Source: Bolinopsis microptera (Eukaryota; Ctenophora; Tentaculata; Lobata; Bolinopsidae). From it: DNA of 64,000 nt. This document shows positions 18,519-55,445 of this stretch, piece after piece. Both the position numbers and the translations under genes were made by a program. The DNA lies in NCBI RefSeq assembly GCF_026151205.1, contig NC_087077.1, positions 1,860,001 through 1,924,000 on the forward strand, in the 5' to 3' direction. Under the pieces are notes generated by a model. That model was not told the DNA's origin. It searched no databases and was given only the letters and a program-made list of their open reading frames with translations. Numbering within the stretch: the first letter of the stretch is position 1; each line of letters opens with the position of its first letter.

Positions 18519-19800
18519 GTCAGGAATTATCACGCGGAGCCCGAAGATGCGATGGTTTTTATTGTTTTGTGACAGTGCCCAGTTCAAGTTAAATATTGTA
18601 TTAATTGGTTCGTGTCAGAAGGGAAACGTTACAGTAATATGCGGCCGGCGGTGGGTGCAAAATCGCATTTTTCACTTATTGTCTACGTTTTCCGTGTCAT
18701 CAGCTTTATCCGTACTATGAATCGTTTTAGTAAAACGGTCGGCCATTCAAACAGGGCAATGTGACTGCTTCCGTTAGTGTGGCTGATTGAGAAAGAGACG
18801 TTCTACTCAAATATGGGAAGTGTAGATATAGAAATAGAATTGTTGATTGTTGGAAATTTGAGTTATATGTCATTATCTTGTTGTTATGGTCCCCATTTGC
18901 TATGTCGGATGTTATGATTTGAGATCACATATCATGTGGACATGAGCCGATAAAATTGAATAGTTAATCAATATAAATTTAATATGATACTATTACTTAG
19001 GTACGGACTTCAGTACGTAACAGTCGACAATAATGTGTTTGGATCTCATAATGTCAGGGTAGCATGATTCATGGGAAAACCAATTGTTTTAGGAATCCCT
19101 TTCACTGGCATTTCTTTACCCACTCGTCTTGTGACGTAACTTGTAGCCAAAAACATCCTAAACTTGGACCATAGACAAAAGTTGACCACTAGCTATAAGT
19201 ATAAAATTTGACCTCTTGTAAAGATGAGGAAATAAAATAATATGTGCTAAGCATCAGCTCAAGGTTAGTTGGGGTTAATTTGTAAGTGACATCGAATCAT
19301 GAAATTTGGAAACCATGAGAACATTGATCAATTGTTAATCTGGTAATCTATATTATAACTTTATACTAAACCTTAGCGGAACTCAATAATAGGACTCAAC
19401 AGCTCATGAGGGTAAAGGGTCAATAATTTATAGAAGACTAGATGGTGTTAGTGTAATTATTGTTTCCATTAGGGTTAGTGTAAGCGAATGATCTTAGAAT
19501 TGGGTGTAAAATAACAATATGAACATGCTACTTCACTGGGAGTCAAGCTACTGTCTGGTAACTAGAATTTAAGGTTGCTAAGTTTTGAGAGGTTAAGTTT
19601 GTAAACGAAGGCGAGGTGCAGAGTGCGGGTAACAAGAATTCTGGGACCTGTTTATGAAATGGATACAAAGTTAGAAGAATATCCAGACAACCGTGGTATT
19701 CGTGGGTGTATACATCAAAGGGATGGCGGACTTCTCGCCAGTTCAGGACGCCCTATTTCCTGGGGAAAATAATTCAAGGGTAGAGCTATTTGGCGATCCT
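18519..19800 (-). repeat. Array arm 1 (partial, inverted)
   Basis: Reverse complement of about 57,890-59,171. Starts in the spacer of the hairpin that lies at 59,137-59,208 in the clean copy and runs to the first 180-nt loop. Holds no complete gene, only the LINE-like fragment and its flank. Confidence 0.85.
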
Positions 19801-19980
19801 TGACTAAGAGCTACTATACACAGCCCAAAATGTGCTGAATGGTAACATCCTCTCCTCACATACTTGCATTCCCATCCTATCTTCACTCCATTGGAGGACC
19901 ATAGAGGGGGTTAGAGCGTGCCGTACACAGCACTAGAGAGGTATTCATAATCCATTCGAGACAACAAATCCTCTTCGCCC
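19801..19980 (+). other. Turn-around loop 1 (~180 nt)
   Basis: The non-palindromic spacer between arms 1 and 2, flanked by ...GGCGATCCT and AGGGAATCGC (AGGATCGCC in the clean copy). It matches 57,705-57,889 of the clean segment, so it is genomic sequence and not an adapter. It recurs at 32,470-32,642 and 45,088-45,270 in the same orientation. Confidence 0.8.
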
Positions 19981-22140
19981 AGGGAATCGCAAATAGATTT
20001 CCTTGATGTTACCCCGGAATAGGCTCCTGAACTGGGCGAGAAGTCGCCATCGCCTTTGGGATGTATAAACACCTCGAAATTCTAGGTTGTTGGATATTCT
20101 TCTAATAGTATCCAGTTTTAACAGGTCCCAGAGATTCTTGTTACCCGTGGGCATCTTGCTCCTCGCCTTCTTTACAAACTTAACCTCTCAAGTACTTAGC
20201 AGACTTATTTTTGTTACAGACAGTAGTCTGACTCATGAGTAGGCATGTTTTATTGTTATTTTACTCATTCTAGATTCATTAGCTTTCCCTACACTATGGA
20301 ACCAATAAGTTACACTAAACACCATCTGTCTTCGTTGTATTAGTTACTTACCCTCATGAGGTTGTGTCCTATTATTGAGTTCGCTAAGGTTTGTGATATA
20401 GTTATAAATAGATTAAATGATTAAACAAATGATCAATGTTCTCATGGTTCCAAATTTCATGATTCGATGTCACTTAAAATTAACCCCAACTAACTTGAGG
20501 CTGTGCTAGTCATATTATTTTATTCCTCATCTTTAAGAGGTCAAATTTCTATTATGTTTGTGGTCAACTTTATGTCTGTGTCAAGTTTTAGGGTGTTTTG
20601 GCTAACAATGTTACGTCTTGCGACGGTGGGTAAAGAAATGCCAGTGAAAGTGGATTCCTGAAAACAATTGTTTTCCAAGATTCATGCTACCGAATTATGA
20701 GCTTAACATTTTTGTCGGGTTTACGTTCTGAAGTCGTACCTAGTAATGTATATATTATATTTATACTTGAATTAACTATTCAATTTTATAGGTCATGTCA
20801 ATGATGGATGTGATCTCAAATTCATAACATCGACATAGGTATTGGGGGTCCATAACAACAAGTATGACATATCTCAATTTTTGCCAACAATCAACAATTC
20901 TATTGTATATCTAACTTCCCTTATTTGTGTAGAACGTTGCTTTCTCAAATTTCTGCAACTCTAACGAGCCAGTCACATTGCTGTTTTGAAATGGCCGACC
21001 GTTTACTTACGATCATAGTACGGATAAAGTGATGACACGATAAACGTTAGACAATAAGTAAAAGTGCGATTTTGACCACCGCGGCCGCATTTCGTATACG
21101 TTTCCTCTGAGCAGAACCAATTATACAATATTAAGGTTGAACTGGGCCAGCTGTCACAAAACAATAATACCGTCGCTTCTTCGTGGCTCGGTGAATATTT
21201 CTGACAGCTTGTGGAGGGAATTTGCGGCCCGAAGAAGCGAACGTATTATTGTTATAACTATTGAGGTTCGTTGGAACCGTTAATGTGATACGTGCGCATG
21301 ATACATGTAGTTTGTATATATAGTGTGCCACTGTATTTGTTTAAAAATTCCCGGCCAGCAGTTGAGGGACAGAATATTGCTCATAATACCTTCGGTCCTT
21401 GCTGGAAAAATCTGCAAATTATAAGTCTCAGTGTCCTCGGTTTTAGTGCATTATAATTTCCGGTAATTGTTATAAAATGTATGGCGCCCTTGAAGCATGA
21501 CCAATTAATATTACCTTCCAAAGCTGGAGGGCGTCTGTCTTAAAGTATGGATTGATCCAAGAGCAAAAAATGTATAACATTTGTACAAAACACTGGTATA
21601 TTGAAAATCGACAGTATGCTTAATGCTGGGCTAGATTGTTACAGCAGAGAATTTCTAGAACGTTGCAGGCAGTTACGATATGCGCTTTGTGCTTATAATG
21701 GACAATTAAGCTTTTCAAAAGCCCTCTCCCCTATGCTAGGCTGATCAGTTCCAGTTTATTTGAACTATCCTCATACGAGCCATGTATTATTTCTGTGAAC
21801 AGTTGCACGATTTAATCCGTGTTCGAACGGCCAAATAGAATGGACTTAAATTTAATTCTTCCTATGAGCCATCAGGAGTTGGAGTTCCCTCAGTGCTCTC
21901 GACAATTTAATGATCTGTTGCACATGTAACGTGATAAAGATCATAACTGCTCTCCTCGTTAAATTGAAGTCTCGGGGACAATATTTACCAGAAGCTCTGA
22001 ATTGTAATACTATAGGGCATTGTTGTAGCTAATTTTATTTAATAGCTGAGGCATGAGACACCATGCCTGACAAACTTGCCCTTGCAGTTGTTACTATAAA
22101 AAGGCGATTGATCAATACAAAATATTATAGGTGATTAACA

Positions 22141-22335
22141 ATGTCGATTGTTTTAGTCCTGATTTGTGGTCTGCCTTGCAGCGCAAGTAACCGAAACAAA
22201 ACAGTTGCCCTAACAGTACAAACTACTTCTACTAGCAGTAGCACTATGCCGTTTCCACCATGAGACTCTACCAATTCTACTAGCAGTAGCAGTCACCAGC
22301 CCTACAGGATTTATTCAGTAAAGTCCCATATGTAG
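22141..22335 (+). pseudogene. Broken copy of Ser/Thr-rich peptide gene (arm 2)
   Basis: Same start and Ser/Thr/Pro-rich body as the clean gene at 60,146, with the reading frame lost by small indels. The TATA-like ACTATAAAAAGGCG is kept upstream. The breaks look like sequencing errors rather than decay. Confidence 0.75.
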
Positions 22336-22950
22336 ACTACAAACCAGTTCTTCTAGCAGTCCAACTATGAATGCATAAGACCAAAATGCACCAAAAAGCA
22401 TCCCAAAAAAGTACCCATCAGGCGAGGATCTGACTTTTTTGGATAAATTCAGATAAAATGACTATTTGGTAGATGACTAGTAAGTTTGGTGTGATAACTT
22501 TGCATGATTTTATGCAATATGCTGAACCTTTAGTCTCTAGTGTTTATAGTATTGATTTTATCTTATTACAGACTCAAAGAACGAAATTTTGTTATATAAT
22601 TAGTAGCTAGTCCATTCTGGTACTAGTTGTAATATGAGCGGGATATAAATACTTTGTTATATTATTATTATTATATGCTTTGTCTTTATGATCATGTTTT
22701 ATTAGAAACATATTTCAAACTTGAAGGATATTATTATTTTTTTTAATTGTTAAGACCGAGATGCTGCATCCATGAAGATCCATACCACAAATTGTCAATG
22801 ACTGGAAAAAGCGAGCGACCGATTTCATTCTTGGTATCATTTTGCATTTGAGAATGTAATTCAAATGTATATTTTAATTAAACAATAGCTGTTGCAATTA
22901 ATATGTTGATATAATTTAATTTAGACTGATGATTTTAACAGTGCTTATAT

Positions 22951-23440
22951 TTACTCTTCGTCGGGTTCGCACCCTGACGTCAAGGAAGAAGAACCTGATG
23001 GTGGTGGTGATATCTCTCCTTCTGTTCTCGTCATCATGATGATGGGGTGATCTCCGTATCTCACCAGGTAAGGTGCCGGTCCTTACAATCAGTCTCCCTG
23101 TCTTTCACTGTTCCCAGACACATGTGTGTAGGGTTGATGAGGGTCCAGGGTTGCTTTCCACTCATCAATTCCTCGTCACGCAGGTCCTTAGTGAGACATC
23201 AAAGTCAGTGTCCACAAGTTCTGGGTGTTCGTCTCCTTTCACATTCTTTTCAGGTTGATCTTTACATTTGCAGAAAGGTTTTTTCATCGGCGGCAATACG
23301 AACTTAAAATTGTAGTCTGCCTTTACGGTCCTTTGCTTTTTCTGTACGTAAATGGCTCAGATCGTCATCGTCATGGTGAGTGACAATCTCCATCACATGC
23401 GGTGGAAGTGCCACCAGAGTTACCATAATAGACACCTCAT
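22951..23440 (-). pseudogene. Broken copy of His-rich protein gene (arm 2)
   Basis: Counterpart of the clean gene at 60,984-61,487, about 490 instead of 504 bases, with many one-base changes. Ends (stop and ATG regions) are recognisable. Confidence 0.75.
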
Positions 23441-24552
23441 TGACGAATGCTGAGCTTTAAGGGCGGAGAAGGGAAAGATGTGTAATTACTGTAAGACACT
23501 TTCAGAACAATTCACGTCGAATGAGATGAGTAGTTGCAGCGCTCTTTTTATCTTTTTTTCGATCTTTGGTTAAAGCCATTTTATCATGTTAAACCACTTG
23601 TAATTGCAATTTAATCAAGTCTGTCAAGATGGTTAACTTAATTTTCTAACAACGCCTGTACCCATCATTTGTTGGCCGTGACCCTATACAAAGAAATATT
23701 TAGCTTATGTTCACGATCTTTGTTCAATTTATGTGTAGTGAACTGTATCTCAGCTTTTTATTTTCACAACGCAATGGGGGAAAATTGAGAAATAAGATTG
23801 CAAACGTGAAAAAATCACACATATAACTTTTCTAAATGAACTTCAGTCAGAATATTTTATGCAGAATATTAGTCAACCGGCCTTCGGCGGGATTAATTGC
23901 GCAGTTTAAAAAGGGTAGGAGTATTTACCCACTGAGTCAAAACCGCATTACGGCATTAGGTGAGCAGTTCTATCTCGGGTGCCCTCACGTATCCTATAGT
24001 ATCTTAAACAATAGTATCTTATACAATTATCCATATAAATTAACCCTTATTTAAACTCCGCACCACACCCACACTATTTGAAAACATTGCATTACATTGT
24101 CGTTGAAAGTATGACCTCTCTCTACAGTCCCAAACAGGACCGCTTTGAGCGCTCCTCCCCTATTAAGTTTAAACGTATCATGACAGTGTAATTATGATAT
24201 ATGTTCCAACGCTAGATCTGCAAGATAAGATAAGATAAAGTTGTTCAATAAAATTCAGCATAAATTTAATTTAAAATATTTGGATTTAAAACGATCAACT
24301 GATTCCGCTGAAATCTGCAGTCAGTAATCTAAAAATTAAAATATGCCTCTCATGCTTCCTCGATGAAAAAATGTTTTAGAAAAACTTAACAGTTCAATAA
24401 TCAAGATTAAATCAAATTTGAGATCAAGATAAGAGTTGATAAGTGTTAATTATTTAAATCATCTTTCGAGAAAGTTGAGATATCATAAACTATATTATTC
24501 TGAGCTAGAGAATCCCTAAGCTATCCCAAATGTTTTAACGACTGGATTATGT

Positions 24553-25654
24553 TTACAGCTCGGAATGTCTATAAGTAAAAAGTGTCAAAATCCTTAACTC
24601 TCCTGAAATGTCCTTGAAACCCATCCTCAACCTACCCTCCATCTTCACAGCAGATTTCACACCAGGAAATATCTCCAAACACAGTTCTTCACCGACAAGT
24701 CCGTGTAAGGACTGTAGTAGACACATTCCGTCCAAACTCTTTAACCAGAGTCACGGTGAGATTGTAGTCCAGTGGGCCAGTCTCCACAAACTCCGTAGGG
24801 AATATCAGCCGCGGCCATATGATCGGAAAACTTGGGACTATAGCCTCGTTAGTAAGTGGCAGGTTTTTGAGCCAGGGCGAGAAGGTAGCGCTAACAAAGC
24901 GCGAGGTGAAGTGTAATCCCCAGGTAGCGCCCCAACATTCAGATCCCGGCACCATTGGGGGCATACGAGTAGTCTTCTCCCTGGGAAGAGTATTTTAACC
25001 CTTATCTTCCTTGTATTCTCTGGAAATGAGTTTTAGTTCTTGAGATTGTATTGTGCCAGGAGAAGGGTTGGTGAGTTTGTCAGAACCCGTCTGTAATTGT
25101 CATACACTTCACTCCTTTCTTTAACATGTTCAGCATATCCTGCCCCACGTTTTGTCCGTTTAGGTTGACGTGATTGGCACACTGCCCCACTCGTATCCAG
25201 CCCACACAGCTGGAAACTTGTCACTCTCCAGATCATCATTGATTTGTTTTACCGTTTGTAGGTGCAGGTTATGCAGGGATCATGGTCTGTGGAATGGCAT
25301 TATCACATGCGGCACAGAGATATCAGAGGAATTATGTATCTGCATTATCTTTGAAAAGGTGTCATGGCAGTGTGTCCTGTTTCATTTATCCGTCGCATGT
25401 AGTATTGACCAGTTGCCATAATTGCCAGGATAACGATTCTTTTGAAGCGGTTAGTAAAAGAAAAAGGGCACCAGGACGTTGGGAAGTGGGTGGCTTTCAT
25501 GTTTGTACCAGCAGGCTCGTTACTTGTGGAAGTCAGGGGAATAGGAAAACTCCAACTGCGTCGGAGTACTACGCCCCCCATTCCTCGCTTTGACTCGGAT
25601 TCTTGACATGATCAGTTAGGGCTGCAATGTGGCGAGGTTAGCAAATCCCAACAT
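24553..25654 (-). pseudogene. Broken copy of Ntn hydrolase gene (arm 2)
   Basis: Counterpart of 62,609-63,754, shortened by ~44 bases through scattered one-base losses. Short stretches of the protein survive in shifting frames, for example around the NSPT and SRF motifs. Confidence 0.75.
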
Positions 25655-26098
25655 AATGTAAAAAAACAAATATTAGAATAAAGTATTAGGGTTAAATTCT
25701 TGCAACTACAAACAATATTGAATTAAAGCACTCGATAAAACCAGCAGGTAAGGTACTGAAGGGGTAATGATTTACATTTGGAAACAGGAAATGAAATCCA
25801 GTAGTGATTAATGATTTCAAGATTTAAACATTATATTTTATAATTTCTCGGCTTCGTCTCTTTGGGAAAAAAATATAAGTTTTTATATTTTCCTTTTTTA
25901 ATACTGCAGATTGCAGCATTTTCTGTTCTTAGTTTGCATTAAAAATGTACACACATTTATTTGTGAAATAAATTTATACGGGTAACCTGTTCATGGGCAA
26001 ATATTTTGACACAGTAATCGATACGCGTATTGGTGGTGTGGGAGGATCAAGGACTGCAGCCAGCGAGTTTTAATCAAATCAAATAATTTTTTCTGTGT

Positions 26099-26137
26099 GA
26101 TATATTTATTAAAAACATGTGAAAAATTAATTTGATT
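26099..26137 (+). other. Turn-around loop 2 (~40 nt)
   Basis: AT-rich spacer between CTGTGT and ACACAG, where the forward arm turns into its reverse complement. Equivalent loops at 38,816-38,857 and 51,423-51,461 read in the same orientation. Confidence 0.8.
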
Positions 26138-26581
26138 ACACAGTATAAAAAATAATTTGATGATTTAAAAAAACTCGAGTGCTTGCAGTCTGAATCCTGA
26201 CGGACACACCAATACGCGTATCGATTACTGTGTGCAAATTATTTGCCATGGAACAGGTTACCGTTAATTTTTTTCACAAATAAAATGTGGGTACATTTTT
26301 TTATGCAAACTTAAGATCATATTTGCTGCAATCTGCATATTAAAAAAGGAAATATAAAACTTTATTTTTTTCCCAAAAAGAGACGAAGGACGATGTAATT
26401 ATAAAATATAATGTTTATCTTGTTAATAAGTTAATCACTATGAATTTCTTTCTGTTCCAAATGTAGAATTCATTACCTTCTGTACCTTACTGCAGGTTTT
26501 CGGAGTGCTTTAATTAATTTTTGTTTGTAGTTGCAAGTAGTTGGAACCCTAATACTTTATTCTAATATTTTTTTTACCTGT

Positions 26582-27706
26582 ATGTTGGGATGTGGATCCT
26601 CGACACATTGTGACCCTAAATGATGTCATGTCAGAGATCCTAGTCAAAGAGGAGGATGGGGCGTAGTACTCGGACGCAGTTTGGAGTTTCCTATTCCCTG
26701 GACTTCCACATTGTTAACGGTGCCTGTGGTACTAAACTGAAAGCCCCCACCTCTTCCCAACTGTTCTGGTGCTCCTTTTTTCTTTATACCGCTTCAAGAG
26801 ATCGTTTATCCCCCCGGGCAGATTTTTAATGGCAAAATGGTGCAATATACTTGCGACTGGATAAATGAAGCTGGACTCTTGCCAATGTCTCCTTTTCATA
26901 AGGATAATGCTGAGTCCATAGATCCTTTGTTATCTTGTGCCGCATGTGATAATGCCATTCCACAGACCTTGTTCCCTGCAGACATCCTGGCTACCTAAGA
27001 ACGGTAAAACAAATCTAGGGGATGATCTGGAGAGTGACAAGTTTCCAGCTGTGTGGGCTGGAGGACGAGTTTGGGCAGTGTTGCCATCACTTCACATAAA
27101 CGACAAAACTGGGGAGGATTTAGTGCTGGAACTGTAAAGGTGAAGGAGTGAAGTGGTATGTCAATTCATTCGGGGGGTTTGACAATCTCAACCTTCTCCT
27201 GGCACATGGAGCAATCTCAGGAACTATCTCATTTCCTGAGAATGGACAAAGGAAGAGAAGGGTTAAAATACTCTTCCAGGGAGGAAGATACTCGTTATGG
27301 CCACAATGGTCCGGATCTGGAATGTTGGGCTCTGGGGATTACACTTCACCTTCGCGCTTTGTTAGGTTGCTACTCTTCTGCCCTGGCTCCAAAACCGGCC
27401 ACTACTAAACGAGGCTATAGTCCATGTTTTCCATCATATGGCACGCGGCGATATTCCCTACTTGAGTTTGAGGCTGGCCATGGAAACCTAGCATATTTCA
27501 CTGGTGGACTTCTGGTTAAAGTTTGGAACGGAGATGTGTTCTATACAGGTCTTACACGGATGACGGTGCTAGAAACATGGTTTGGATGATATTTTGGTTG
27601 TGAAATTGCTGTGAAGATGGAGGGGAGGTTTGAGGATGGTTCAAGGACATTTCAGGGAGGTTGATGGATTTTGACACTGTTTTACTTGATAGACATTCGA
27701 GCTGTA
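26582..27706 (+). pseudogene. Broken copy of Ntn hydrolase gene (arm 3)
   Basis: Counterpart of the clean gene, with ATG and stop regions recognisable. The frame is broken many times, and the breaks differ from those in arm 2. Confidence 0.75.
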
Positions 27707-28836
27707 AACAATAATCAGTCGTTTAAAAATTTGGGTAGCTTAGGGATCTCTAGCTCTGGATACTTATAGTTGAATCTCACTTCTCGAAAAGGAGGTTAAA
27801 ATATTTTACCACTTTATCACACTCTTATCTTGATCTCAATTTGATTTAATCTTGATTTTGAACTAGGTTAATTTTCTAAAACCATTTTTCATCGAGAAGG
27901 CATTGTGGAGCATTTTTTAATTTTTTAGAGTTACTGACTGCTGATTTCAGCGGATTCAATTTGTCGTTTTTAAATCCAATGATTATAAATTAAATTTATG
28001 TGAATTTTATGAAACATCTTTATCTTGATCTTACTTGCAGAGTCTAGCGTTGGTACATATATCATAATTACACTGTCATGATTACTTTAAAACTTATTAG
28101 GGGTGGACGCGCTCATTAGCGGTCTGATTGGACTGTAGAGAGGAGGTTCATATTTCATACGACATTGTAAGCTGTTTTCAAATATGTGGGTTGTGTGTGC
28201 GGAGTAAATAAGGGTTTATTTCTTTTGATTTTTGTTTAAGAAGACTATTGTTTAAGATACTATTGGATACGGGAGGGCACTCGAATTAGAACTGCTCACT
28301 AATGCCGTAATGCGGGTTTTGAATCAGTGGGTAAATACTCACCCTACCTTTTTAACTGCGCAAGTATTTCCGGCGAAGGCCTGGTTAGACTAATATTAGC
28401 ATTATAAAAACTATTCTGCTGAACGTTTCATTTCGAAAGTTAAATGTGTGATTTTTCAGTTTGCAAATCTTTATTCTCAATTTCCACTTGCTTTGTGAAA
28501 ATATAAAGCTGTGTTACTGTCACCTTCATCTAATTTGAACAAAAAGATCGTGAAACATATGAGGCTTATTATTCTTTGTAGTTGGGTCCACGGGCTACAA
28601 ATGATGGGGGGTAAGGGTCCGTTGGTAGAAAATTAAGTTAAACCATCTTGACAGAACTTGATTAATGCAATTTCAGTTGGTTACCATGATTTATAAATGG
28701 CTTACCAAAGGAACGAAAAAAAGATAAAAAAGTGCGCTGCAACGTACTCAAACTCATTCGACGGTGAATTGTTCTGAAGGTGTGTCTTATATGTTATTTA
28801 CACATCTTTCTCCAGCTTAATGCTCAGCATTCGCCA

Positions 28837-29355
28837 ATGAGAGTGTCTATTAGTGATTTAACTCTGGTGGCACTTGCCACCCGCTTGTGATGGAGATTGT
28901 CCTCAACATGACGCATCGACGAGCTAGCACCATTTACGTGAAAGAAAAAGCAAGTGTGTATCAGCCTACAATGGCTAGGACTACAGTTTAAGTTCGTTAG
29001 TTGGCGCCGATAACCTTTAGCAAAGTAAGTTCAACTGAAGAAGATTGTGGATCAGGAGCACGAACACCTGAAACTTGTGACACTGACTATGATTGTCTCC
29101 TATGGAATCTGCGTGACGAAGGAAATTTGAGGAGGGAATATAGGCAACCTGGACCTTATCTCCACTACACTCATGTGGGTCCTGGGAACAGTGAGACAGG
29201 GAGACTGAGTTGTTAAGGGAGCCGGGCACCTACTGGTGAGATCGGAGATCACCATCATCATGATGACGTGAACAGAAGGATGGAGATGAGCTCCACCACC
29301 ATCATGGAGTTCTTCTTCCTTGACGTCAGGGGTGCAGAGACCCGACGAAGAGTAA
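28837..29355 (+). pseudogene. Broken copy of His-rich protein gene (arm 3)
   Basis: Start region CAATGAG and the GACGAAGAGTAA end are present; the interior is shifted by scattered single-base changes. Confidence 0.72.
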
Positions 29356-30016
29356 ATCTAAGCACGGTTTAAAGGCATTTCCGTCTAATGTAAAATTGTT
29401 TTTATCAACTTATTAATTGCAACTGCTATTGTTTTAATTATAATATTATATTTGAATTATCATTTCTCAAATGCAAAATGATTACCAAGAATGAAATCGG
29501 TCGCTAGCTTTTTCCATTCATGACATTTGTGATAGTGCTCTTCAATGGATTGCAGCAAGCTCGGTTCTTAACATATTAAAAAAAAATAATACATTAGTCA
29601 TTCAAGTTGAAATATGTTTCTTTATAAATGATCATACAGACAAAGATATAATAATAATAATTATAATGTATTTATATCCGTCATATAAGCAATAGTAAAC
29701 AAAGGATTGGTACTAGCTACCTAATTATATAACATAATTCGTTCTTTTGTGTCTGTATTGGAAGATAAAATCCAATACTATAAAACCACTAGTGACTAAA
29801 AGGTTCATGCATATTGCATAAATATGCATGCACAGTTATCACACAAACTATAAGTCATCTACAAAATTAGTATTTTTTTCTGTATTATCCAAAAAGTCAG
29901 ATCTCGCTTGATGGGTTACCTTTTTATTTTACTTATTTTACTTTTTTTGAGCTTTTGGGTGCATTTTGGGTGCTTATGCTTCATAGTGGACTGCTTGTAG
30001 AAAACGGTTGTAGTTT

Positions 30017-30208
30017 AACTAGGTGGGACTTTATGAATAGTAATTATGCAGGAGCTGGTGGATGCTAATGCTAGTAGAAGTGAGTAGGAGTCTCCATAGG
30101 TGGACTGCTAGTGATGCTGCTGTAGAATAGTTGTATTGTTAGGGCACTGTTTTGTTTCGGTTTACTTGCGCTGCTGGCAGACCACAATAGGACTAAAACA
30201 ATCGACAT
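30017..30208 (-). pseudogene. Broken copy of Ser/Thr-rich peptide gene (arm 3)
   Basis: The signal-peptide start is recognisable at 30,208; the Ser/Thr region is partly lost. Confidence 0.68.
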
Positions 30209-32469
30209 TTTTATAACCTGATAGATATGTTTGTTATTGATCAATCGCCTTTTTTTATAGTACATCTGCGATGGCAAGGTTTGTCAGGGGCATGGTTGTC
30301 TCATGCTCTGCTATTAAATAAAATTAGCTACAAACAAATGCTATTAGTATTACAATTAGAGAGTATGTAAAGATTGTGAGACTTCAATTTATCGTGGGAG
30401 AGCAGTTAATGATCTTTATCACGTTACATGGTGCCAACAGATCCTTTAAAATATGTCGAGGGCACTGAGGAACACCAATCCTGAGTGCTCATAGGAAGAA
30501 TTTTTTTAAATGGTCATTTCTATTTGCCGTTCGAACACGATTTAATCGTGCAATGGTTCCAAGAAAAGAAAAATTCATGGTCGTATGAGGGATCGTTCAA
30601 TATAACTGGAGACTGAGTCAGCCATAGGGCATAGGGGGTGCGGCTTTTGAAAAGCTTGTAATTGTTCATTCATATGCAAGCATAGGCTTATCGTATTGAC
30701 TGGCAACGACTAGATAATTCTCTGCTGTAGTCAAATGCTAGCCCAGCAGTATGCAAGTACTGTCGAATGTTTCAATATACCATGTGTTTGTACTAATGTT
30801 TATACATTTGTTTGCTCTTGGATCAATCCTTACTTTTGAGACAGTCGCCCTCAGCTTGGAAGGTTTAATATTGAATTGGTCATGCTTTCAAGGGCCGCCA
30901 TACATTTATACCTATTTCGGGAATTATAAGCACTAAACTCGTGGACACTGAGAGCTGTTAATTTGCAGATTTTACCTCAAGGAACCGAAGGTTTTATGTG
31001 CACATATTGCGAGTCACCTCAGACTGCTGTGGCGGGAATTTTTAAACAAAATACAGTGGCTCTATATTTACACAATATTATTGTATCCTGCGCTCGTATC
31101 ACATGTGGTTCCACGCGGAACGTCAATAGTTATAAACAAATAATACGTTCGCTTCTTCGGGCGCAAATTCTCTCCAGCAAGCTGTAAGGAATTCACGCGG
31201 AGCCGAAGAAAGCGAGGTATTATTGTTTTGTGACAGATGGCCAGTTCAAGCCTTAAATATTGTTATTTAATTCGGTCAGAGTCAGAGTAAACGTATACGT
31301 AAATGCTGCCGCGGTGGGTGCAAAATCGCATTTTTACTTTTGTCTAACGTGTTCGTGTCGTCAGCTTTATACGTACTATGATCGGGTTATAGTAAAACGG
31401 TTCGGCCAATTTCAAAACAGGGGCAATGTGACTGTTCGTTAGAGTGGCTGACTGCTGAATTTGAGGGAAAGAACGGACGTTCTACACAATAATGGGAAGT
31501 GTAGATATAGAATTGAATTGTTGATTGTTGGCAAAATTGACGGATTATGTCATTTCTTGTTGTTATGGACCCCTAATAGCTATGTCGGTGTTATGATTTG
31601 AGATCACATCATCATGTGACATGAGACGATAAAATTGAGTATAGTTATCTATATAATTATATTATGATACCTTTACTAGGTACGGATTCAGTAACGTAAC
31701 CGACAAAAATGTGTTAGGCTTCATAATGTTCAAGGGTAGATGAATCATGGAAAACAATTGGTTTCAGGTCATCCACTTTCACTGGATTTCTTTACCCACT
31801 CGTTATGGACGTACAATTGGTAGCCAAAAACATCCCTAAATTGACACTAGAAACCATAAAGTTGACCACTAGACATAATATAAATTTGACCTCTTGTAAG
31901 ATGAGGGAAATAAATAAGATGTGCTAAAGCATCAGCTCAAAGGTTTGGTTGGGTTAATTTGTTAAGGTGACATCGAATATGAATTTTGGAACATGAGAAA
32001 TTGATCAATTGTTATAATCAGTAATCTACTATTCTTTAACTTTATAAAAAAACTTCTGCGAACTCAATATTAGGGAACACAGCTCATGAGGGTTAAAGGA
32101 AATATTTCTACGAAGACAAATGGTGTTAGTGTAACTTATTGTTTTCATGGGTAGTGTATGTACTGATCTTAGACTCTGAGTAAAAAATAAAAAAAGAACA
32201 TGCTACTCATGAGTCAGCTTCTGTTGGTAACTAGTAAATAAGTGCAGCTAAGTTATTGAAGCGGTTAAGTTTGTAAAGAAGGCGAGGAGCAGAGTGCCGG
32301 GTACAAGAATCTCTGGGACTGTTAAGAAATGGATCAAGTTAGAAGAATATCAGACAACGTAGGTATTTCGAGGGTGTATACATCCAAAGGCGATGGCGAC
32401 TTCTGCACTGTTTCAGGACCGCCCTATTTCCCTGGGTTAATTCAGGGTTGATCTATTTTGGCGATCCTT

Positions 32470-42025: not shown

Positions 42026-42659
42026 ATATAAGCACTGTTTAAAGCATTCAGTCTAATTTAAAAATTTTTATATCAAAATTTTAATTGCAACGCTATTGTT
42101 TTAATTTTAATATAAATTTGAATTTTCATTTTCAAATGCAAAAATGATTCCACAGAATGATATCGTCGCTCGTTTTTCATTCATTGACAATTTGTGGTAG
42201 TTGCTCTTCAATGAATGCAGCAATTCGGGCTTAACAATTAAAAATAATAAAAGTCCTTCAAGTTGAAATATTGTTTTCTTATATCAGAATCATACAGACA
42301 AAGCATATAATAATAATAATATAACAAAGTATTTATATCCGCCTTATTAGCAACTAGTAACCATGAATGGTACTAGCTACTAATTTATAATATCTTAATT
42401 TCGTTCTTTTGAGTCTGTATATGAAGATAAAATCCAATATCTATAAAAACACTAGGACTAAAGGTTCATGCATATTGCATAATATGCATGCAAGTTATAC
42501 ACAAAACTTAATAGTTGATCTACAAAATATAGTCTTTTTAATCTGTATTTATCCAAAAAAAGTCAGAATCCTCGCTTGATGGGTACTTTTTTGGATGCTT
42601 TTGGGTGCATTTGGGTGTTATGCTTTCATAGTTGGCTGCTAGTAGAAACTGGTTGTAGT

Positions 42660-42855
42660 CTACATAGGTGGACCTTTATGAATGTATACTGAGGAGTGGT
42701 GGACGGTACTGCTAGTAGAAGTGGTAGAGTCTCCATAGGTGGGATGCTAGTGTACTGCTAGTAGAAGTAGTGTATCTGTTAGGCCAACTGGTTTTGTTTC
42801 GGTTTGGTTACTTGCGCTGCAGGCATACCACATTCAGGACTAAAACAATCGACAT
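42660..42855 (-). pseudogene. Broken copy of Ser/Thr-rich peptide gene (arm 5)
   Basis: Start and stop regions both recognisable on the minus strand; Ser/Thr codon repeats (ACTAGCAGT) still visible. Confidence 0.7.
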
Positions 42856-45087
42856 TTTTATATGATAGATATGTTTGTTATTGATCAATCGCTTTTTTAA
42901 TAGTTTTCAATGCAGATGCAAGTTTGTCAGGGGCATGTTGTCTTCATGTCAGCATTAAATAAAATTAGCTACAACAATGCTTTAGTATTACATCAGAGCA
43001 GTCTGTAAATTGTCGAGACTTCATTTAACGAGGAGAGCAGTTAATGATCTTTAATCACGTTCACATGGTGCAACAGATCCATTAATATGTCGAGGCACTG
43101 AGGGGACACAAACTCTGAGTGCTCATAGGAAGAATTATCTTTTAATGTATTTTATTTGCCGTTTCGAACACGATTAAATCGTGCAACTGGTTCCACAGGA
43201 CATAATACATGGTCGTATGTAGGGATCGTTCAATATAAATTGGTGACTGAGTCAAGCTAGGGCATAGTGGGGGGAGTGGCTTTTGAAAAGCTGTATTGTC
43301 CATTATATGCAAGAAAAGCGATATCGTATCTGATGCAACGTTCTAGATAATCTCTGCTGTAGACAATTGCTAGCCCGCAGTAAGCAGTACTGTCGATGTT
43401 TCAATATACCATGTGTTTGTAATAATTGTTTTACCATTTGTTTGGCTCTTGGATCAATCTACTTTAGAGACAGAAGCCTCAGCTTGGAAGGTACATTGAC
43501 TGGTATGCTTCACGGGGCCGCCATACATTTATAAACTATTTCGGGAATTATATGCAACTTAAAACTCGGGACACTGAGCGCTGTGATTAATTTTGCAAGA
43601 TTTTTCCCGCAAGGATCGAAGGTATTATGAGCACTATGCGAGTCACCTCAGACTGGCTGCGGGACGTTTTAAAAACAATATAACAGTGGCACACTTTATT
43701 TACACACTATATTGTATCAGCGCAGTATCACATGAAGGGTTCAAGCGGAACCGTCAATAGTTATAACAAATAATACGTTCGCTTCTTCGGGCGCAAATTC
43801 TCAACAAGCTTCAGGAATTATCACGCGGAGCCCGAAAATCGAGGTATTATTGTTTTGTGACAGCTGGCCAGTTCAAGCCTTAATATTTGTATTAATTTGG
43901 TCGTGCTCAGAGGAAACGTATCGTAATGCGGCCGCGGTGGGTGCAAAAATCGCACTTTTTACTTATTGTCTAACATTTTTCGTGTTCTTCAGCTTTATCG
44001 TTCTATGATCGTATTGTATCGGTCGGCCATTTCAAAACCAGGCAATGTGACTGATTCCGTTAGAGTGGTGAATTTGAGAGAATGCGTCGTTCTACACAAA
44101 GAATGGGTAGTGTAGATATAGAAATGAATTGTTGATTGTGGCAAAAATTTGAGTTTTATGTCATATCTTGTTGTTATGGGGTCCCATTAGCCTATGTCGG
44201 ATGTTATGATTTGAGATACATCATCTTGTGAATGAGCGATAAAATGAATAGTAATCAATATAAATATTATATGATACTATTACTAGGTACGGGATCTTCA
44301 GTAACGTAATCGACAAAAATGTGTTAGGTCTTAATGTCTGGGTAGCGTGAATCATGGAAAACAATTGGTTTAAGGATCCCATTTCATGGCATTTATTTAC
44401 CCACTGTTGTGGTCGTACATTGTTAGCCAAAACTTCCCTAAACTTGGAACCACTAGGACATAAAGTTGTCCACTAGAATTATATAAAAAATTTGACCTCT
44501 TGTAAAAGATGAGGAAATAAAGAATAAATGTGCTAAAGCATCAGCTCTAGGTTAGTTGGGGGTTAATTTGTTAAGGGACATCGAATCATGAAATTTGGAA
44601 CCATGAGAACATTGATCAATTGTTTTAAATCAGTCTAATCTATATTATATTTTATTAATCAACCTTAGCAACTCAATAATAGGGACACAAACAGCTCATG
44701 AGGGTTAAGGAAATATTTTACGAAGACATGATGGTGTTAGGTGTAACTGCTTGCTTTCCATAGGTGTGTAAGCTAATGATCTTAGAATTGAGTAAAAAAT
44801 AACATAAGAACAGTTAAATATGTGTCTGCTACTGTTGGTAACTAGAAAATAAGTATGCTAAGTTCTGAGAGGTATAAGTTTGTATAGAAGGCGAGGAAGC
44901 AAGAGTGCCCGTGTACACGAGATTCTATGGGACTGATAAAACTGGATACAGTTTTGTAGAATATCCAGGGGACAACCGTAGGTATTTCGAGGGTGTATAA
45001 ATCCCAAAGGCCGATGGCGACTTCTCGCCCAGTTCAGGGAGCCCTATTTCTGGGTAACATTCAAGGGAAGATCTATTTGGCGATCCT

Positions 45088-45270
45088 TGACTAAGAGCTA
45101 CTTTACACCAGCCAAAAAAATGATGCTGAATGGTACCACCTTCCTCACATTAACTTGCACTTCATTTCATCTTCAATCCACTGTGAGTCCATAGACGGGG
45201 GTTAAGAGAGTGCGTACCACAGCACTAGAGAGGTCTACATATCATTCGAGAACAACCAAATCCTCTTCGC
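45088..45270 (+). other. Turn-around loop 1, third occurrence
   Basis: Same ~180-nt spacer and orientation as at 19,801 and 32,470. Confidence 0.8.
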
Positions 45271-47472
45271 AGGATTCGCCAAATAGATTTCCCTTGATTG
45301 TACCAGGGAAATAGGGCGTCCATGAACTGGGCGAGAAGTCGCCATCGGCCTTTGGGATGTATACACCCTCGAAATACCTTACGGTTGTTGGATATTCTTT
45401 AAACTTGTATCCAGTTTTTAAGGTCCTGAGATTCTTGTTACGGGGCATCTTGCTCTCGCTTCTTTACAAACTTAATCTCAAGAACTTAGCAGACTTTTTT
45501 TCTAGTTACAGACAGTAGGCTGACTATGAGTCGCATGTTCTTATTGTTATTTTAATCAATTTCTAAGATATTAGTTAACTACCTATGGAAACAATAAAAG
45601 TTACACTAACACCATTTGTCTTCGTAGAATATTTCCTTTATCCATGAGCTGTTGAGTCCCTATTATTGAGTTCGTAGGTTTGTTATAAAGTTATAGTATA
45701 GATTAATGATTTAACAATTATCAATGTTCTCATGGTTCCAAATTTCATGATTCGATGTCACTTAATACAAATTAACCCCCAACTAACTGAGCTGATGCTT
45801 AGGCAATATTATGTATTTCCTATCTTTACAAGAGATCAAATTTATATTTTGTCTAGTGAGTAACTTTATGTCTTGTGGGTCAAGTTTTAGGGATGTTTGG
45901 CTAACAATGTTACGTCAGCAGAACGAAGTGGGTAAAGAATGCAGTGAAGTGGATTCCTGATAACCAATTGTTTTCCATGATTCCATGTACCCTGACATTA
46001 TGAGCCTAACACATTTTTGGTCGGTTTACGTTACTGAAGTCCGTACCTTAGTAATAGTATCATATTATATTTCAATTGATTAACTTTTCATTTTTATCGG
46101 CTCATGTAACATGATGGATGTGATCTCAAATCATAAATTCGACATAGGTAATGGGGGTCCATAACAACAAGATATGACATAATCTCAAATTTTGCAACCA
46201 GAATCAAATTCTATTTCTATTTCTACACTTCCAGTATTTGTGTAGAACGGTCGCTTTCTCAAATTCAGCCACTCTAACGAAGCAGTTCACATTGCCTGTT
46301 GAATGGCGACCGTTTACTATACGATCATAGTACGGTTAAAGCTGATGACACGAAAAGTTAGGACAATAAGTAAAAAGTGCGATTTTGCACCCACGCGGCG
46401 CATTTTAGTTACGTTTCCTTGAGCACGAACAATTATACAAATATTTAAGGCTTGAACTTGGGCCAGCTGTCCAAAAAACAATAATACTTCGCTTCTTCGG
46501 GCTTCCGCGTGGATAATTCTGACAGCTTGCTGGAGGGACATTTGCGGCCGAAGAAGCGAACGTATATTTGTTATAATATGACGGTTCCGCTTGGACCGTA
46601 TGGATTCGTGGCATGATACAATATAGTGTGTAAATATAGTGTGCCACTGTTATTGTTTTAAAAAATTCCCGCACGCCTGTCTGAGGTTGACTCGAATATG
46701 TGCTCATTATACCTTCGGTTCCTTGCTGGAAAAAATCTGCAAATTATCGCTTCTCTGTGATCCAAGTTTTATGTGCATATAATTCACGAGAAATAGTATA
46801 ATGTATGGCGGCCTTGAAGCATGACCAATTCAATATTACTTCCAAGCTGAGGGGCTGTTCTAAAGTAAGGATTGATCCAGAGCAAACAAATGTTATAATA
46901 AACATTAGTTCATACACATGTACTATTGAACATCGACTGTACTGTTACTGCTGGTAGCTTGGTTCTACAGCAGAGAATTATCTAGAACGTCTGCAGCAGA
47001 TACGTTACTGCGCTTTGCTTGCATTATAATGAAATTAACAGCTTTCAAAAGCACCTCTCCCCTATGCCCTAGGCTGACTCAGTCTCAGTTATATTTGAAC
47101 GGATCCTCATACGAAGCATGTATTATTTTGTGGGAACCAGTGCACGATATAATCGTGTTCGAACTGGCAATAGAAATGACTTAAAAATAATTCTTTATGA
47201 GCACTCAGGAGTTGGTGTTCCCATCTGTGCCTCGACTTATTTAATGGTTCTGTTGCACATGTAAGTGTAAAGATCATTAACTGTCTCCTCGTTTAATGAA
47301 GTTTCCGAACTATCTTTTAAGACTGCTTGAATGGTAATACTAATAGCATGGTTGTAGCTAATTTTATTTTAATAGCTGAGATGGACAAAACCATGCCCCT
47401 GACAAAAACCTTGCCATCTGCAGTTGTACTTAAAAAGCGATTGTTAATAACAAAATATTTACAGGTGATAAA

Positions 47473-47669
47473 ATGTCGATTGTTTTAGTCATGATTGTGG
47501 TCTGCCTTGCAGACGCAAGTAAACCGAAACAAAACTGTTGCCCTTACGATACAACTACTTCTACTAGCAGTAGCACTAGCAGTTCACATATGGAGATCCT
47601 ACCACTCTACTAGGCAGTAGCGTCCACCAGTCCTGCAGTATTACTAATTCTGTAAGGTCCACTATGTAG
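47473..47669 (+). pseudogene. Broken copy of Ser/Thr-rich peptide gene (arm 6)
   Basis: ATGTCGATTG start and CTATGTAG end retained; frame lost between. Confidence 0.72.
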
Positions 47670-48301
47670 ACTAAACCAGTTTACTAGAGTCCATATGAAA
47701 GCATAAACAACAACAAAGACCATATGCCACCAAGATCAAAAAAGTACCATCAAGCGTGGATCTGATTTTTGGATAAATACAGATAAAAATGGGACTTATT
47801 TTTGTGTAGATGACTAGTAAGGTTTGGTGTGATAACTTTGCATGCATATTATGCAATATGCATGAACCTTAGTTCTCTAGTGTTTTTTTGTATTGGATTT
47901 TTATCTTCATTCAGACTCTTAAGAAACGAAAATTATGTTATATAATTAGTAGCTGTACCATTTATTGGTTACTCTAGTTGCTAATATGAGCGGGATATAA
48001 ATACTTTGTATATTATTATTATTTTATGCTTTGTTGTATGATTGTTATCAGAAACATATTTCAACTTGAAAGGACTATATTATTTTTTTTAATTGTTAAG
48101 ACCGGAGATTGCTGCATCCATTGAAGGCACTACACAAATTGTCAATGAAGGAAAATGCGAGCGACCGATTATTCTTGGAATCAGTTTGATTTTGGAGATG
48201 ATAATTCAAATTTACTATTATATTAAAACAATAGCTGTTGCAATTAATATGTTGATATTAAAATTTTAAATTAGGCTGATTGCTTTAAACAGTGCTTATA
48301 T

Positions 48302-48788
48302 TTATTCTTCGTCGGGTTCTTGCACCCCTGGACGTAAGGGAAGGAGAACCCATGAGGTGGTGGTGATATCCTATATTCTGTTCCTCTTCATCTGATTGAT
48401 GGTGATTCCGTAATTCACCAGTAAGGTGCCCGGTCTTTACAATCAGTCTCCTGTCTTCACTGTCCCAGGACCACATGAGTTGTAGTGGTTGATGATGTCC
48501 AGGGTGGCTTTCACTCCTCATTTTCTCGTCACGCAGAGTCTTAGTGGAGACATCAAAAGTCGTGTCCACAAGTTCAGGGTGTTCGTCTCCTTTCTCAATC
48601 TTCTTCAGGTTGATCTTTAAATTTGCGAAGGTTTATCGGCGGAACTACGACTTAAAAACTGTAGTCATGCCATTTACGGACCTCTTGCTTTCTTTCAGTA
48701 AATGGCTAGTCGTCATCGTTATGGTGAGGACAATTCCATCACAAGCGGTGGCAAGTGCCACCAGAGTTAACACTATTAGGACACCTAT
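48302..48788 (-). pseudogene. Broken copy of His-rich protein gene (arm 6)
   Basis: Counterpart of the clean gene; the ATG region has lost a base. Short in-frame pieces remain. Confidence 0.7.
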
Positions 48789-49884
48789 TGCGAATGCTGA
48801 GCTTAAGGCTGGAGGAAGATGTGTAATTTCTGTAGAACCTCTTCAGACAATTCACCGTCGAATGAGTGGAGTACGTTGCAGCGCTCTTTTTATCTTTTTT
48901 CGTGCCTTTGGTAAGCCATTTTAATCAAGTTACCAACTGGAAATTGCAATTTAATCAAAGTCTGTCAAGATGTTAACTTAATTTCTATACACGCTGAGTA
49001 CCATCATTGTAGGCCGTGACTCAACTACAAGAAATATTTAGCCTCCATATGTCCGATCTTTTGTTCATTTATGTTGGTAGTGAACAGTTCTCAGCTTTTT
49101 ATCTTTCACAAAGCAATGGAAATTGAGAAATAAGATTTGCAAACGTGAAAAATCACACATTTAACTTTTCTAAATGAAACTTCAGTCAGATAGTTTATGG
49201 CGAATATTAGTCTATCCCGGCCTTCGGCCGGATATAATTGCCGCAGTTAAAAAGGGTGGAGTTTTTACCACTGAGTCAAAACCCGCATTACGGCATTAGG
49301 TGAGGAGTTTATTCGGAGTGCCCTCACGTATTCCTATAGTATTTAATACAATAGTTTCTTAAAAATAATCAATAGAATTAACCCATATTTACTCGCTCAC
49401 ACCCAACATATTTGAAAACTGCATTACTTTGTCGTATATGAAAGTATGACCTCTTCTACAGTCCAAACAGACCGTATGAGCGCTCATCCTAATAAGTTTA
49501 ACGTATTCATGACAGTGTATTATGATATATGTACAACGCTAGACTCTGCATGTAGATCAAGATAAGTTGTTCAATAAAATTCAAGCATAAAATTTAATTT
49601 AAGATCATTGGATTTAAAACGACAAAATTGATTGCTGAAATCAGCAGTAGTATCTAAAAAAATCTAAAAAATGCTACATGTTCCTCGATGAAAAATGGTT
49701 TTTAGAAAATTTAACTAGTTCAAAATCAAGATTAAATCAAATTTGAGATCAGATAAGAGTGTGATTAACGTGTTAAAATATTTACACATCTCTTTTCGAG
49801 AAAGTGAGATATCAAACTATAATATTCCAGAGCTAGAGGAATCCCTAAGCTATCCTCTAAATGTTTTTAACGACTGATTATTGT

Positions 49885-50995
49885 TTACAGCTCGGAATGT
49901 CTATCAAGTAAAAAGTGTAAATCTTCAATATCTGAAATGTCTTGAAACCATCCTCAAACATCCCTCCATCTTCACAGCAGATTTCACACCAGAATATCTC
50001 CAAACACAGTTTCTTCACCGGACAAGTCCGTGTAAGACCTGTAGTAGACACTTCTCCTTTCCATTTTTAACCAGAGTCCACCAGGTGAGATTGCTAGTCA
50101 GTGGGCAGTCTCCACAACTCCGTAGGGAATATCAGCCGCGGCCAGTTGATGGAAACTTGGACTATAGCATCGTTTGTAGTGCAGGTTTTGGGAGCCAGGG
50201 CGAGAAGAGTAGCAGCCTTAACAAAGCGCGAGGTTGAAGTGTAATCCCCCAGGTTGCCAACATTCCAGTATCCGGACCATTGTGGGCATACGCGTAGTTT
50301 CTCCCTGGGAAGAGTATTTAACCCTTCTCTTCCTTTTTTTTCCTTGGAAATGAGGATAGTTTGAGATTGTCATGTGACAGGAGAAGGTTGGAGATTTGTT
50401 TGTTATTTTCAGAACCCCGACTGTATTGTCTTACCACTTACTCTTCTACTTTAACATGTTCAGCTCTAATCTGCCCAGTTTTGTCGTTATGTTGAGTGTA
50501 TTGGCAAAACTGCCCCAAACTGTCTCCGAGCCCTCACAGCTGATAACTTGTCCTCTCCAGATCATCTTGATTTGTTTTACCGTTCGTAGGTAGCAGGATG
50601 TATGCAGGGGATCATGTGGCTGTGAATGGCATTATCACTTGCGGCACCGCAGATATAGAAGGATCTATGTACTCAGCTTTATCTTTGAATGGAGGACATT
50701 GGCAGAGAGTCTGCTTACATTTATCCCGTCGGCATTAGTATTGCACCAGTTCATTAATTGCCAGGATAACGATCTCTTTGATAGCGGTTTGTAAAAGAAA
50801 AAGGAGCACAAGGACAGTTGGAAGTGGGTGGGTTCATGTTTAGTACCAGCAGGCTCCGTTCAATGGGAACGTACTGGGGAATAGGAAACCCAACTGCGTC
50901 CGAGTACTACGCCCCCAATCCCTCCGCTTTGACTCGGATCTTTGACATGACTCTGTTAGGGTCAGCATGTGGCGAGTGATAGCAAATCCAAACAT
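49885..50995 (-). pseudogene. Broken copy of Ntn hydrolase gene (arm 6)
   Basis: Ends align with the clean gene; many frame breaks inside. Confidence 0.73.
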
Positions 50996-51422
50996 ACTGT
51001 AAAAAAAATATTAGAATAAGTATTTGGGTTCAATTTCTGCAAACTTCAAACAAAATGAATTAATGCACTCGAATAACCTGCCAGTAAGGTCAGAAGGGGT
51101 AATGATTCTACATTTGGAAACAGGAAAAGAACAGTAGTGATTAACTTATTATCAAGATTTAAACATTATATTTTATAAATTTCATCGGTTGTCTCTTTGG
51201 GAAAAAATAAAGTTTTTTTTTTTCTTTTTTAATATGCAGATTGCAGATTTATGATCATAGTTTGCATAAAAATGTACACACTTTATTTGTGAAGAAAATT
51301 TACGGGTACCTGTTTCCATGGGCAAAGAATTTGCACACAGTAATCGTTACGGTATTGGTGGTGTCGGCAGGATCAGGATGCAGCACTCGAGTTTTAATTC
51401 ATCAAATTATTTTTTACTGTGT

Positions 51423-51461
51423 GATTTATTTATTGAAAAATTAGTGAAAAATAATTTGATT
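51423..51461 (+). other. Turn-around loop 2, third occurrence
   Basis: 39 nt between ACTGTGT and ACACAGT, the cleanest of the three, same orientation. Confidence 0.8.
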
Positions 51462-54055
51462 ACACAGTAAAAATTAATTTGATTGATTAAAACTCGAGTG
51501 GCTGCAGTCCTGATCCTGCCCGACACACCAATTCGCGTATCGATTACTGTTGTGCAATTTATTTGCCATGGAACAGGTTACCGTATATTTTATTTCAACA
51601 ATAAAAATGATGTTACATTTTTTATCAAACTAGATCATAAATGCTGCAATCTGCATATTAAAAGGAAATATAAAACTTTAATTTTTTTCCCAAAGAGACG
51701 AGGCGATGAAATTATAAAAATTAATGTTTAAATCTTGATAATATGTTAATCACTATGATTTTCTTTCTGTTTCCAAATGTAGAATCATTACCCCTTCTGT
51801 TACCTTACTGCAGGTTATCGGTGTGCTTTAATTCATTTTTGTTTGTAGTTGCAAGAATTGAACCTAATACTTTATTCTAATTTTTTTTTTACTGTATGTT
51901 GGGATTTGCTATCCTCGCCACATTGCTGACCCTAACTGAGGTCTTGTCAAGAGATCCGAGTCAAAGCGGTGGAATGGGGGCGTAGTACTCGGACGCGGTT
52001 TGGAGTTTCCTATTCCCTGGACTTCCAATGTACGGGCCTGGGTTCTAATCATGAAGCCCACCCCTTTTCCCAACTGTCTGGTGCTCTTTTTCTTTTACTA
52101 ACGCTTCAAAGAGATCGTATCTGGGAGATTATGGAACTGGTGCAATACTACATGCGACGGGATAAATGAAGCAGGACTCTCTTGCCAATGTGCCTCCTTT
52201 TCAAAGTTAATGCTGAGTACATAGATCCTTCTGATTTCTCTGGTGCCGCATGTGGATATAATGCCATTCCACAGACATGATCCCTGCATACATCCTGGCT
52301 ACTACGAAACGGTAAAACAATCAAGGATGAATTGGGGTGGACAAGTTTCCAGCTGTGTGGGCTGGAGCGAGGTTTGGGGCAGTTGTTGCATACACTTCAA
52401 CATACGACAAAAACTGGGCAGGATTAGTGCTGGAACATGTTAAAGGAGAAAGGAGTGAAGTGGATGACAATACAGTCAGTGTGGTTCTGACAAACTCTCC
52501 AACCTTCTCCTGGCACATGAGCAATCTCAGGTAACTATTCCTCTATTTCCAGAGGAATGACAAAGGAAGAGAGGTTAAAATACTCTTCCAGGAGGAAAGA
52601 CTATTGATGGACCACATGGTCCGGATTGGATTGTTGGGGTACCTGGGAGTACACTTCACCTTCGCGCTTTGTTAGGCTGTACTCTTCTCGCCCTGGCTCA
52701 AAACTGCCACTAATAACGAGGCTATAGTCAAGTTTTCCTTCATATGGCGCGGCTGATATTCCTACGGAGTTGGAGATGCCCACGGACTAGCATCTTCAAC
52801 CTGGGGATCTGGTAAAAGATTGGAACGGAGCATGTGTTATACAGGTTTACACGGACTTGTGAGTGAAGAAACTGTGTTTGGATGATATTTCTGTGTGTGG
52901 AAATCTGTCTGTGAGTTGGAGGGAGTGGTTTGAGATGGGTTCAGACTTTTCAGAGAGTTGAAGGATTTTGACACTGTTTTACTTGATAGGACATCCGAAG
53001 ATGTAAAAATAATCAGTCGTTTTAAAACATTTGGGATGTTAGGGATTCTCAGCTCTGGAATATTTAGTTTGATATCTCACTTTTCTCGAAAAGGATGTTA
53101 ATATTTTTACACTTTATCACACTCTTATCCTTGTTCTCAAATTTGATTAATATTGATTTTGAAAACTAGTTAATTTTCTAAAACATTTTCTTCGAGAGGA
53201 AGCATGTGAGCATTTTTTAATTTTTTAGGTACTGATCTGATTCAGCGGAATCAATTTGTCGTTTTAAATCATTGATTTTTAAAATTAAATTTATGCTTGT
53301 AATTTTATTGAAAACTTTATCTGATTTACTAGCAGAGTCTAGCGTTAGGTACATATATCTATCTTTAACTCTGTCATGAATTATTTAAACTTATTAGGGG
53401 AGGAGCGCTCATAGCGGTCTGTGTGGACTGTAGAGAGAGGTAATTCTTTCATACGACAATGTAATGCATGTTTTCAATTTTTGTGGGTTGTGTGTGCGGA
53501 GTAAATAAGGGTTTATTTCTATTGATTATTGTTTTAAGATACTATGTTTTAGATATATTGGGATAAGTGAGGGCACTCCGAATAGACTGCTCACTAAGGC
53601 GTAATGCGGGGTTTTGACTCAGTGGGTAAATACTCCTACCATTTTTAACTGCGCAATTATATCCCGGCCAAGGCGGTTAGATAATATTCGCATAAAACTA
53701 TTCTGACTGAAGTTTCATTTAGAAAGTCTAAATGTGTGATTTTTCACGTTGCAAATTTATTTCTATTTCATTGTTTGTGATATTAAAAAAGTGAGTTTTG
53801 TTCACTACCATCATAAATTGAACAAAGATCGTGAACATATGGAGGCTATATATTTTTTGTAGTTGGGTCACGGGCCTACAAATTGATGGGGTACAGCGGT
53901 GTTATGTAAATTAGATAACCATCTTGACTGACTGGATTAAATTGGCAATTATGTTGGTTAATTGATTAAATGCTTACCAAGGAACGAAAAAAGATAAAAG
54001 AGCGCTGCAACGTACTCAACTCATTCGCGGTGAATTGTTCTGAAGAGAGTCTTAC
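51462..54055 (-). repeat. Array arm 7 (inverted, truncated)
   Basis: Contains the Ntn hydrolase copy and the Helitron-type block (~53,390-53,690), then stops abruptly at GAGTCTTAC, equivalent to ~61,540 of the clean segment. The sequence beyond is unrelated and clean. Confidence 0.85.
51896..53006 (+). pseudogene. Broken copy of Ntn hydrolase gene (arm 7)
   Basis: ATGTTGGGATTTGC start is intact and the end region is recognisable; the frame breaks repeatedly. Confidence 0.73.
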
Positions 54056-55440: not shown

Positions 55441-55445
55441 TCGAT

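Follow-up and report, generated by a model that had tools for sequence, protein, structure and literature searches.

A 35.5-kb inverted array in the chromosome-scale reference of the ctenophore Bolinopsis microptera is most likely an artefact and not a real chromosomal feature, and the join at which it stands probably should not exist. Judged from the sequence, positions 18511–54055 of the window (the whole 64,000-nucleotide stretch that was analysed, on contig NC_087077.1, here C6) are very probably part of one raw, uncorrected long read, which seems to have been placed as gap filling between what are probably two unmerged haplotype contigs, A and B. The earlier note had proposed an uncorrected read; what it had not noticed is that a single locus is present here in two collinear copies and that the read lies precisely where they join.

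Layout of the array

Self-comparison of the window showed that the array occupies 18511–54055 (35.5 kb), with arms alternating in orientation. The segment from which the arms derive lies at 57699–64237 (6.5 kb) and extends 237 bases beyond the window. The seven alternating inverted arms of ~6.2 kb and the ~12.65-kb period described in the earlier note were recovered, with the qualification that the seven comprise five full arms (6,277–6,369 bases each) and two partial ones. The loop-to-loop periods were 12,714, 12,610, 12,665 and 12,622. The right edge stood at 54055 as claimed, but the left edge, previously put at 18519, is at 18510/18511, A matching its other copy up to 18509; the edges were taken from alignment and may be off by a few bases. 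Both edges of the array are contig ends, not element edges. The window is composed as follows, "clean" coordinates being those of the single copy of the segment.

1..18510, + strand: tail of native copy A; ends directly after a G run; includes insertions absent from B
18511..19801, − strand: arm A1, partial; clean 59178 down to 57886; one base common to A1 and A2 at the joint
19801..26096, + strand: arm A2; clean 57702–64195
26097..32465, − strand: arm A3; clean 64237–57889
32466..38810, + strand: arm A4; clean 57699–64193
38811..45087, − strand: arm A5; clean 64237–57886
45088..51420, + strand: arm A6; clean 57702–64195
51421..54055, − strand: arm A7, partial; clean 64237–61536; read cut at 54055
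54056..64000, + strand: first part of native copy B, which stays collinear with A as far as C6:1940380; 54058 is the counterpart of C6:1831593 in A
57699..64000, + strand: clean single copy of the repeatedly read segment; goes on to 64237 outside the window

Differences between the arms

The arms differed from the clean copy mainly by indels, as had been noticed by eye: per 100 bases we counted 2.1–3.2 substitutions against 2.2–4.4 inserted and 4.1–5.2 deleted bases, and deleted bases outnumbered inserted ones in the arms (1,724 vs 1,084). The impression that most differences are private to one arm also held when they were tabulated. Where all five full arms overlap, with the partial arms A1 and A7 left out, 765 of 787 substitutions, 988 of 1,200 deletion sites and 710 of 738 insertion events occurred in a single arm. 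Natural duplicates had been expected to show more substitutions, and they do: the ratio of substitutions to gap openings was 0.52 for the five full arms and 3.65 for A vs B, and for two pairs of native repeats within the window it was 10 and 37.

Before correction for context, same-orientation pairs of arms shared 46–63 events each and opposite-orientation pairs 16–29, an excess that is expected if the C of one strand is lost most often. We compared sharing among the same five arms with a shuffle in which base identity and the length of runs were preserved, and which covers substitutions and deletions, not insertions. The four same-orientation pairs shared 175 deletions (158.5 expected, sd 10.3) and 15 substitutions (13.9 expected, sd 3.5), and the six opposite-orientation pairs shared 104 deletions (116.3 expected, sd 9.0) and 12 substitutions (7.9 expected, sd 2.8). 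For both classes, arm-to-arm sharing thus stayed within 1.6 sd of the context-matched shuffle, which indicates that errors were independent between passes. The earlier note had named changes shared between arms and forming a consistent tree as what would speak against its reading; sharing was near chance, and no descent signal above chance was found among the five full arms in this context-matched test.

The five arms were also read jointly against the clean copy. At least three of the five agreed on another state at 22 of 6,302 positions, insertions being left out of this comparison, and only one of the 22, at 64059, was a substitution. Private errors, together with arms that jointly return B, indicate that one template was read again and again to give the arms, and that this template is copy B. 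A read derived from copy A was considered and rejected, since only one substitution, at 64059, separates the majority of the five arms from B. At that position B has C, A and four of the five full arms have T, and the fifth full arm has a deletion; either the molecule that was read was not identical to B as assembled, or the assembly of B has an error at this base.

Error spectrum and read direction

A mutation process is blind to the direction in which a read is taken, whereas a sequencer is not, so a spectrum bound to read direction points to sequencer errors and not to mutations. We compiled 917 substitutions from all seven arms, partial ones included. When written in read direction, the spectra of the forward and reverse arms agreed almost perfectly (r = 0.994); when written in element direction, they were uncorrelated (r = −0.009). 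The commonest changes in read direction were A>T (195 in forward and 222 in reverse arms) and C>A (86 and 82). Transitions made up 99 of the 917 substitutions. In the native control of A vs B, which used the longer of the collinear pieces and left out the shorter ones, 347 substitutions in 13 collinear pieces were divided into 172 transitions and 175 transversions. The central claim of the earlier note, that the copies are one sequence read repeatedly, is thus borne out by errors independent in each arm, by a spectrum bound to direction and by the lack of a descent signal. This comparison of read and element direction works without raw reads, and it could reveal such fillers wherever one read passed a segment on both strands.

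We weighed against these data the possibility that the chromosome really contains an inverted amplification. Its regular period and repeated identical junctions might be the trace of natural palindromic amplification. However, the differences between arms are private, rich in indels and follow the direction of the read rather than the strand of the element; no descent signal rises above chance; and the native repeat pairs of the window have ratios of substitutions to gap openings of 10 and 37, as given above. A natural inverted amplification was rejected on the spectrum and privacy of the differences, and we give it next to no weight.

The platform of the read is most likely PacBio CLR. Deletions exceed insertions here, as in the nanopore data of the pertinent part of PMC5553090; the same source describes insertions exceeding deletions in PacBio subreads of older chemistry, the opposite of our arms, so the platform is not certain. 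A nanopore read is nevertheless quite unlikely. Passes in the same direction share errors hardly above chance, whereas nanopore errors are described as systematic and non-random (PMC8495745, in the passage concerned); mismatches are the commonest nanopore error in the PMC5553090 data, but the least common class here; and the methods passage of PMC10232365 names PacBio CLR for the B. microptera assembly.

The locus around the array

Copy A corresponds to C6:1831593–1878509 (46.9 kb), with its tail at window 1–18509, and copy B to C6:1914058–1940380 (26.3 kb), from window 54058 on. A and B are collinear, and their overlap spans the first bases of B to the last of A: homology between them starts at 54058, the last base of the read being 54055, and the last 184 bases of A are 99.5% identical to B at C6:1940197–1940380. 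Collinear stretches of A and B are 89–99.7% identical, the last two of them 99.5–99.7%, and the matching stretches in the window tail of A (1..18510) are 95.5–99.7% identical to B. In the 13 collinear pieces, 347 substitutions were found in 15,277 aligned bases (2.3%).

A and B each carry insertions of their own. Modules in direct and inverted orientation make up a 9.9-kb complex (8434–18325) that is present in A, and the corresponding site in B is empty; inside it lies a 2.7-kb palindrome of 97.6% (13855–16557). The portion at 8434–16560 has 235 matches in the genome, the top ones among the matches listed being 95–99% identical; the complex is a native dispersed repeat, not noise. A repeat of 330–350 bp is common to the repeatedly read segment (61920–62249) and the A-side complex (10978–11308), at 85% identity, and has more matches on other contigs. 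A 41-bp tandem array has ~54 copies in A (C6:1832398–1834621) vs 2.2 in B (window 54977–55065).

On this sequence comparison, A and B are probably two haplotypes of one locus, left as an unmerged allelic overlap. In an alternative account, the chromosome truly holds A and B as diverged tandem duplicates, and only the filled junction is a raw read. The succession of A-end and B-start would have the same geometry, 2.3% substitutions and many insertions are high for alleles, and related segments exist elsewhere on C6 (433–436 kb). However, the start of homology is no more than three bases from the end of the filler, and homology reaches the last bases of A, as a contig overlap must, the last two stretches are 99.5–99.7% identical against 89–99% for the other collinear ones, and the 9.9-kb repeat found only in A resembles a heterozygous insertion. 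A real duplication would need a gap that happens to coincide with its junction, which is less likely than a haplotype overlap, and overall we regard it as unlikely.

Entry of the block into the assembly

For B. microptera, the methods in PMC10232365 list, in text order, Sequel II CLR reads, wtdbg2, HiRise, TGS-GapCloser 1.1.1, Purge Haplotigs and Pilon. The published assembly is reported at 265 Mb in 346 scaffolds with 13 chromosomes, the largest of 26.2 Mb and an N50 of 20.8 Mb (summary figures in PMC11797021); 97.23% of bases are in 13 scaffolds, and the k-mer size estimate is ~254 Mb (figures in PMC10232365). As described in the relevant passages of PMC7476103, TGS-GapCloser uses the read segment between two contigs, drops the estimated gap size and normally corrects its candidates.

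We propose that scaffolding set the overlapping haplotype contigs A and B side by side without merging them, and that a gap-closing program would then have filled the A–B gap with the read. Haplotig removal, coming later, would have missed the duplication because the join lay inside one scaffold, and short-read polishing would have left the block unrepaired. If A and B are haplotypes and the filling is raw, the block and one copy, either the 46.9 kb of A or the 26.3 kb of B, are surplus. A point against this account is that the fill is uncorrected here, whereas TGS-GapCloser normally corrects candidate reads.

The position of the right edge is consistent with such a fill. The segment starts 3,646 bases into contig B, and A7 has 3,650 clean bases left until a further forward arm would follow; when the length ratios of the four reverse arms are used for scaling, the two values disagree by −15 to 87 bases. 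A filler that aligned the next forward arm to B and then, presumably, counted back to the first base of B would cut at 54055. The same arithmetic for the left edge gave 30,339 vs 30,665, 326 bases off. Both sums, if valid, imply a read of at least ~70 kb (30.3 + 35.5 + 3.6 kb plus the aligned ends).

Such events have partial precedents, seen here in the portions of the sources that describe them. As in false duplication of haplotypes (PMC9516828), two diverged versions of one locus were both retained, but A and B are parted by a 35.5-kb raw read in one scaffold. As in inaccurate fills of the TGS-GapCloser type (PMC7476103, PMC8848313), a long-read segment stands between neighbouring contigs and the gap-size estimate is unused; unlike in those fills, the filler is palindromic and uncorrected, and the gap itself is probably not real. 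Among the papers listed by literature searches on palindromes from missed adapters, on gaps filled with raw reads and on dumbbell reads that have no adapter, none describes such a case in its title.

Loops and template

The six loops are of two fixed kinds, and the breakpoints within each kind agree within 3 bases. At the three left loops a reverse arm ends at 57886–57889 of the clean copy and a forward arm begins at 57699–57702; at the three right loops a forward arm ends at 64193–64195 and a reverse arm begins at 64237. Homology at the joints, read by eye, amounts to four bases on the left (TCCT/AGGA) and one base on the right. No adapter-sized insert was present in the six loops, with 0–4 unaligned bases per arm, and a 21-base adapter stretch had 0 matches allowing up to 3 mismatches. 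A strict missed-adapter SMRTbell subread was rejected, the loops being without an adapter-sized insert; for the same reason the template would be a closed dumbbell or a concatemer of one. We infer a self-complementary closed loop with a duplex of ~57.89–64.20 kb, capped by outward loops of genomic sequence of ~184 and ~42 bases, that would have been read round repeatedly, or a concatemer copied from such a loop.

Within this explanation, and not exclusive of it, the read might come from a linear concatemer that strand-displacement amplification had produced ahead of the sequencing, instead of from a closed dumbbell read by rolling circle in the sequencer, a possibility that we hold as doubtful. 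The loops here are without an adapter-sized insert, although a PacBio circle is normally primed at an adapter, which favours the concatemer, and amplification is described as yielding repeated palindromes in PacBio reads (PMC6218980, in the part dealing with it). Against this, the assembly-methods passage of PMC10232365 names no amplification, and a read of at least ~70 kb, if the edge arithmetic holds, fits better with a polymerase read never cut at adapters.

Palindromic PacBio reads arise from amplification or missed adapters, and an unamplified control had detectable palindromes in 0.5% of reads, according to the relevant passages on Pacasus (PMC6218980). As in the palindromic reads described there, one read alternates between the strands of one fragment, and such a read enters assemblies unless it is split. 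Unlike in them, the six loops of our array are without an adapter-sized insert and form two fixed, offset junctions, and the array keeps seven arms and sits inside a finished chromosome.

The template might also be a natural hairpin-capped extrachromosomal DNA of ~6.5 kb that arose in the animal itself and was captured by just one read, although we consider this very unlikely. Such a molecule would form when, at two diverging replication forks, synthesis switches from the leading to the lagging strand. In the pertinent part of PMC10766183, the hairpin-capped extrachromosomal DNA of ODIRA is likewise a closed duplex, each end of which carries a single-strand loop directed outward, and both loops here point outward, as the ODIRA model demands; the details of the junctions fit it poorly. 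The left loop is longer than typical, the right junction has one-base homology, and only one molecule was seen. Inverted repeats of 2–14 bp with arms within ~100 bp, as at ODIRA junctions, were found at neither junction: on the left the repeat is 4 bp but its arms are ~184 bases apart, and on the right the arms are ~42 bases apart but the homology is one base.

Gene content and consequences

The clean segment carries, at 62609–63754 on the − strand, an ORF of 381 residues that is intact and has a choloylglycine hydrolase domain (PF02275), here in the genome of an animal. Each of arms A2–A7 contains this choloylglycine-hydrolase-like gene in pieces that fall in two or three frames, and the gene is also found once in copy A, split over two frames near residue 113. 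DNA relatives occur at C6:433211–436598 (89–92%) and, over about the extent of the ORF, at C9:6611240–6612398 and at three places in C6:14677056–14683087 (78–79%), which suggests a gene family. Elsewhere in the window, at 631–4215 on the − strand, an ORF of 1,194 residues has both an endonuclease and a reverse transcriptase domain, like the ORFs of LINE-type elements.

If the proposed explanation is true, a published chromosome-scale animal reference contains a 35.5-kb raw read together with a probably false duplication of 26–47 kb, and it carries false copies of the choloylglycine-hydrolase-like gene.
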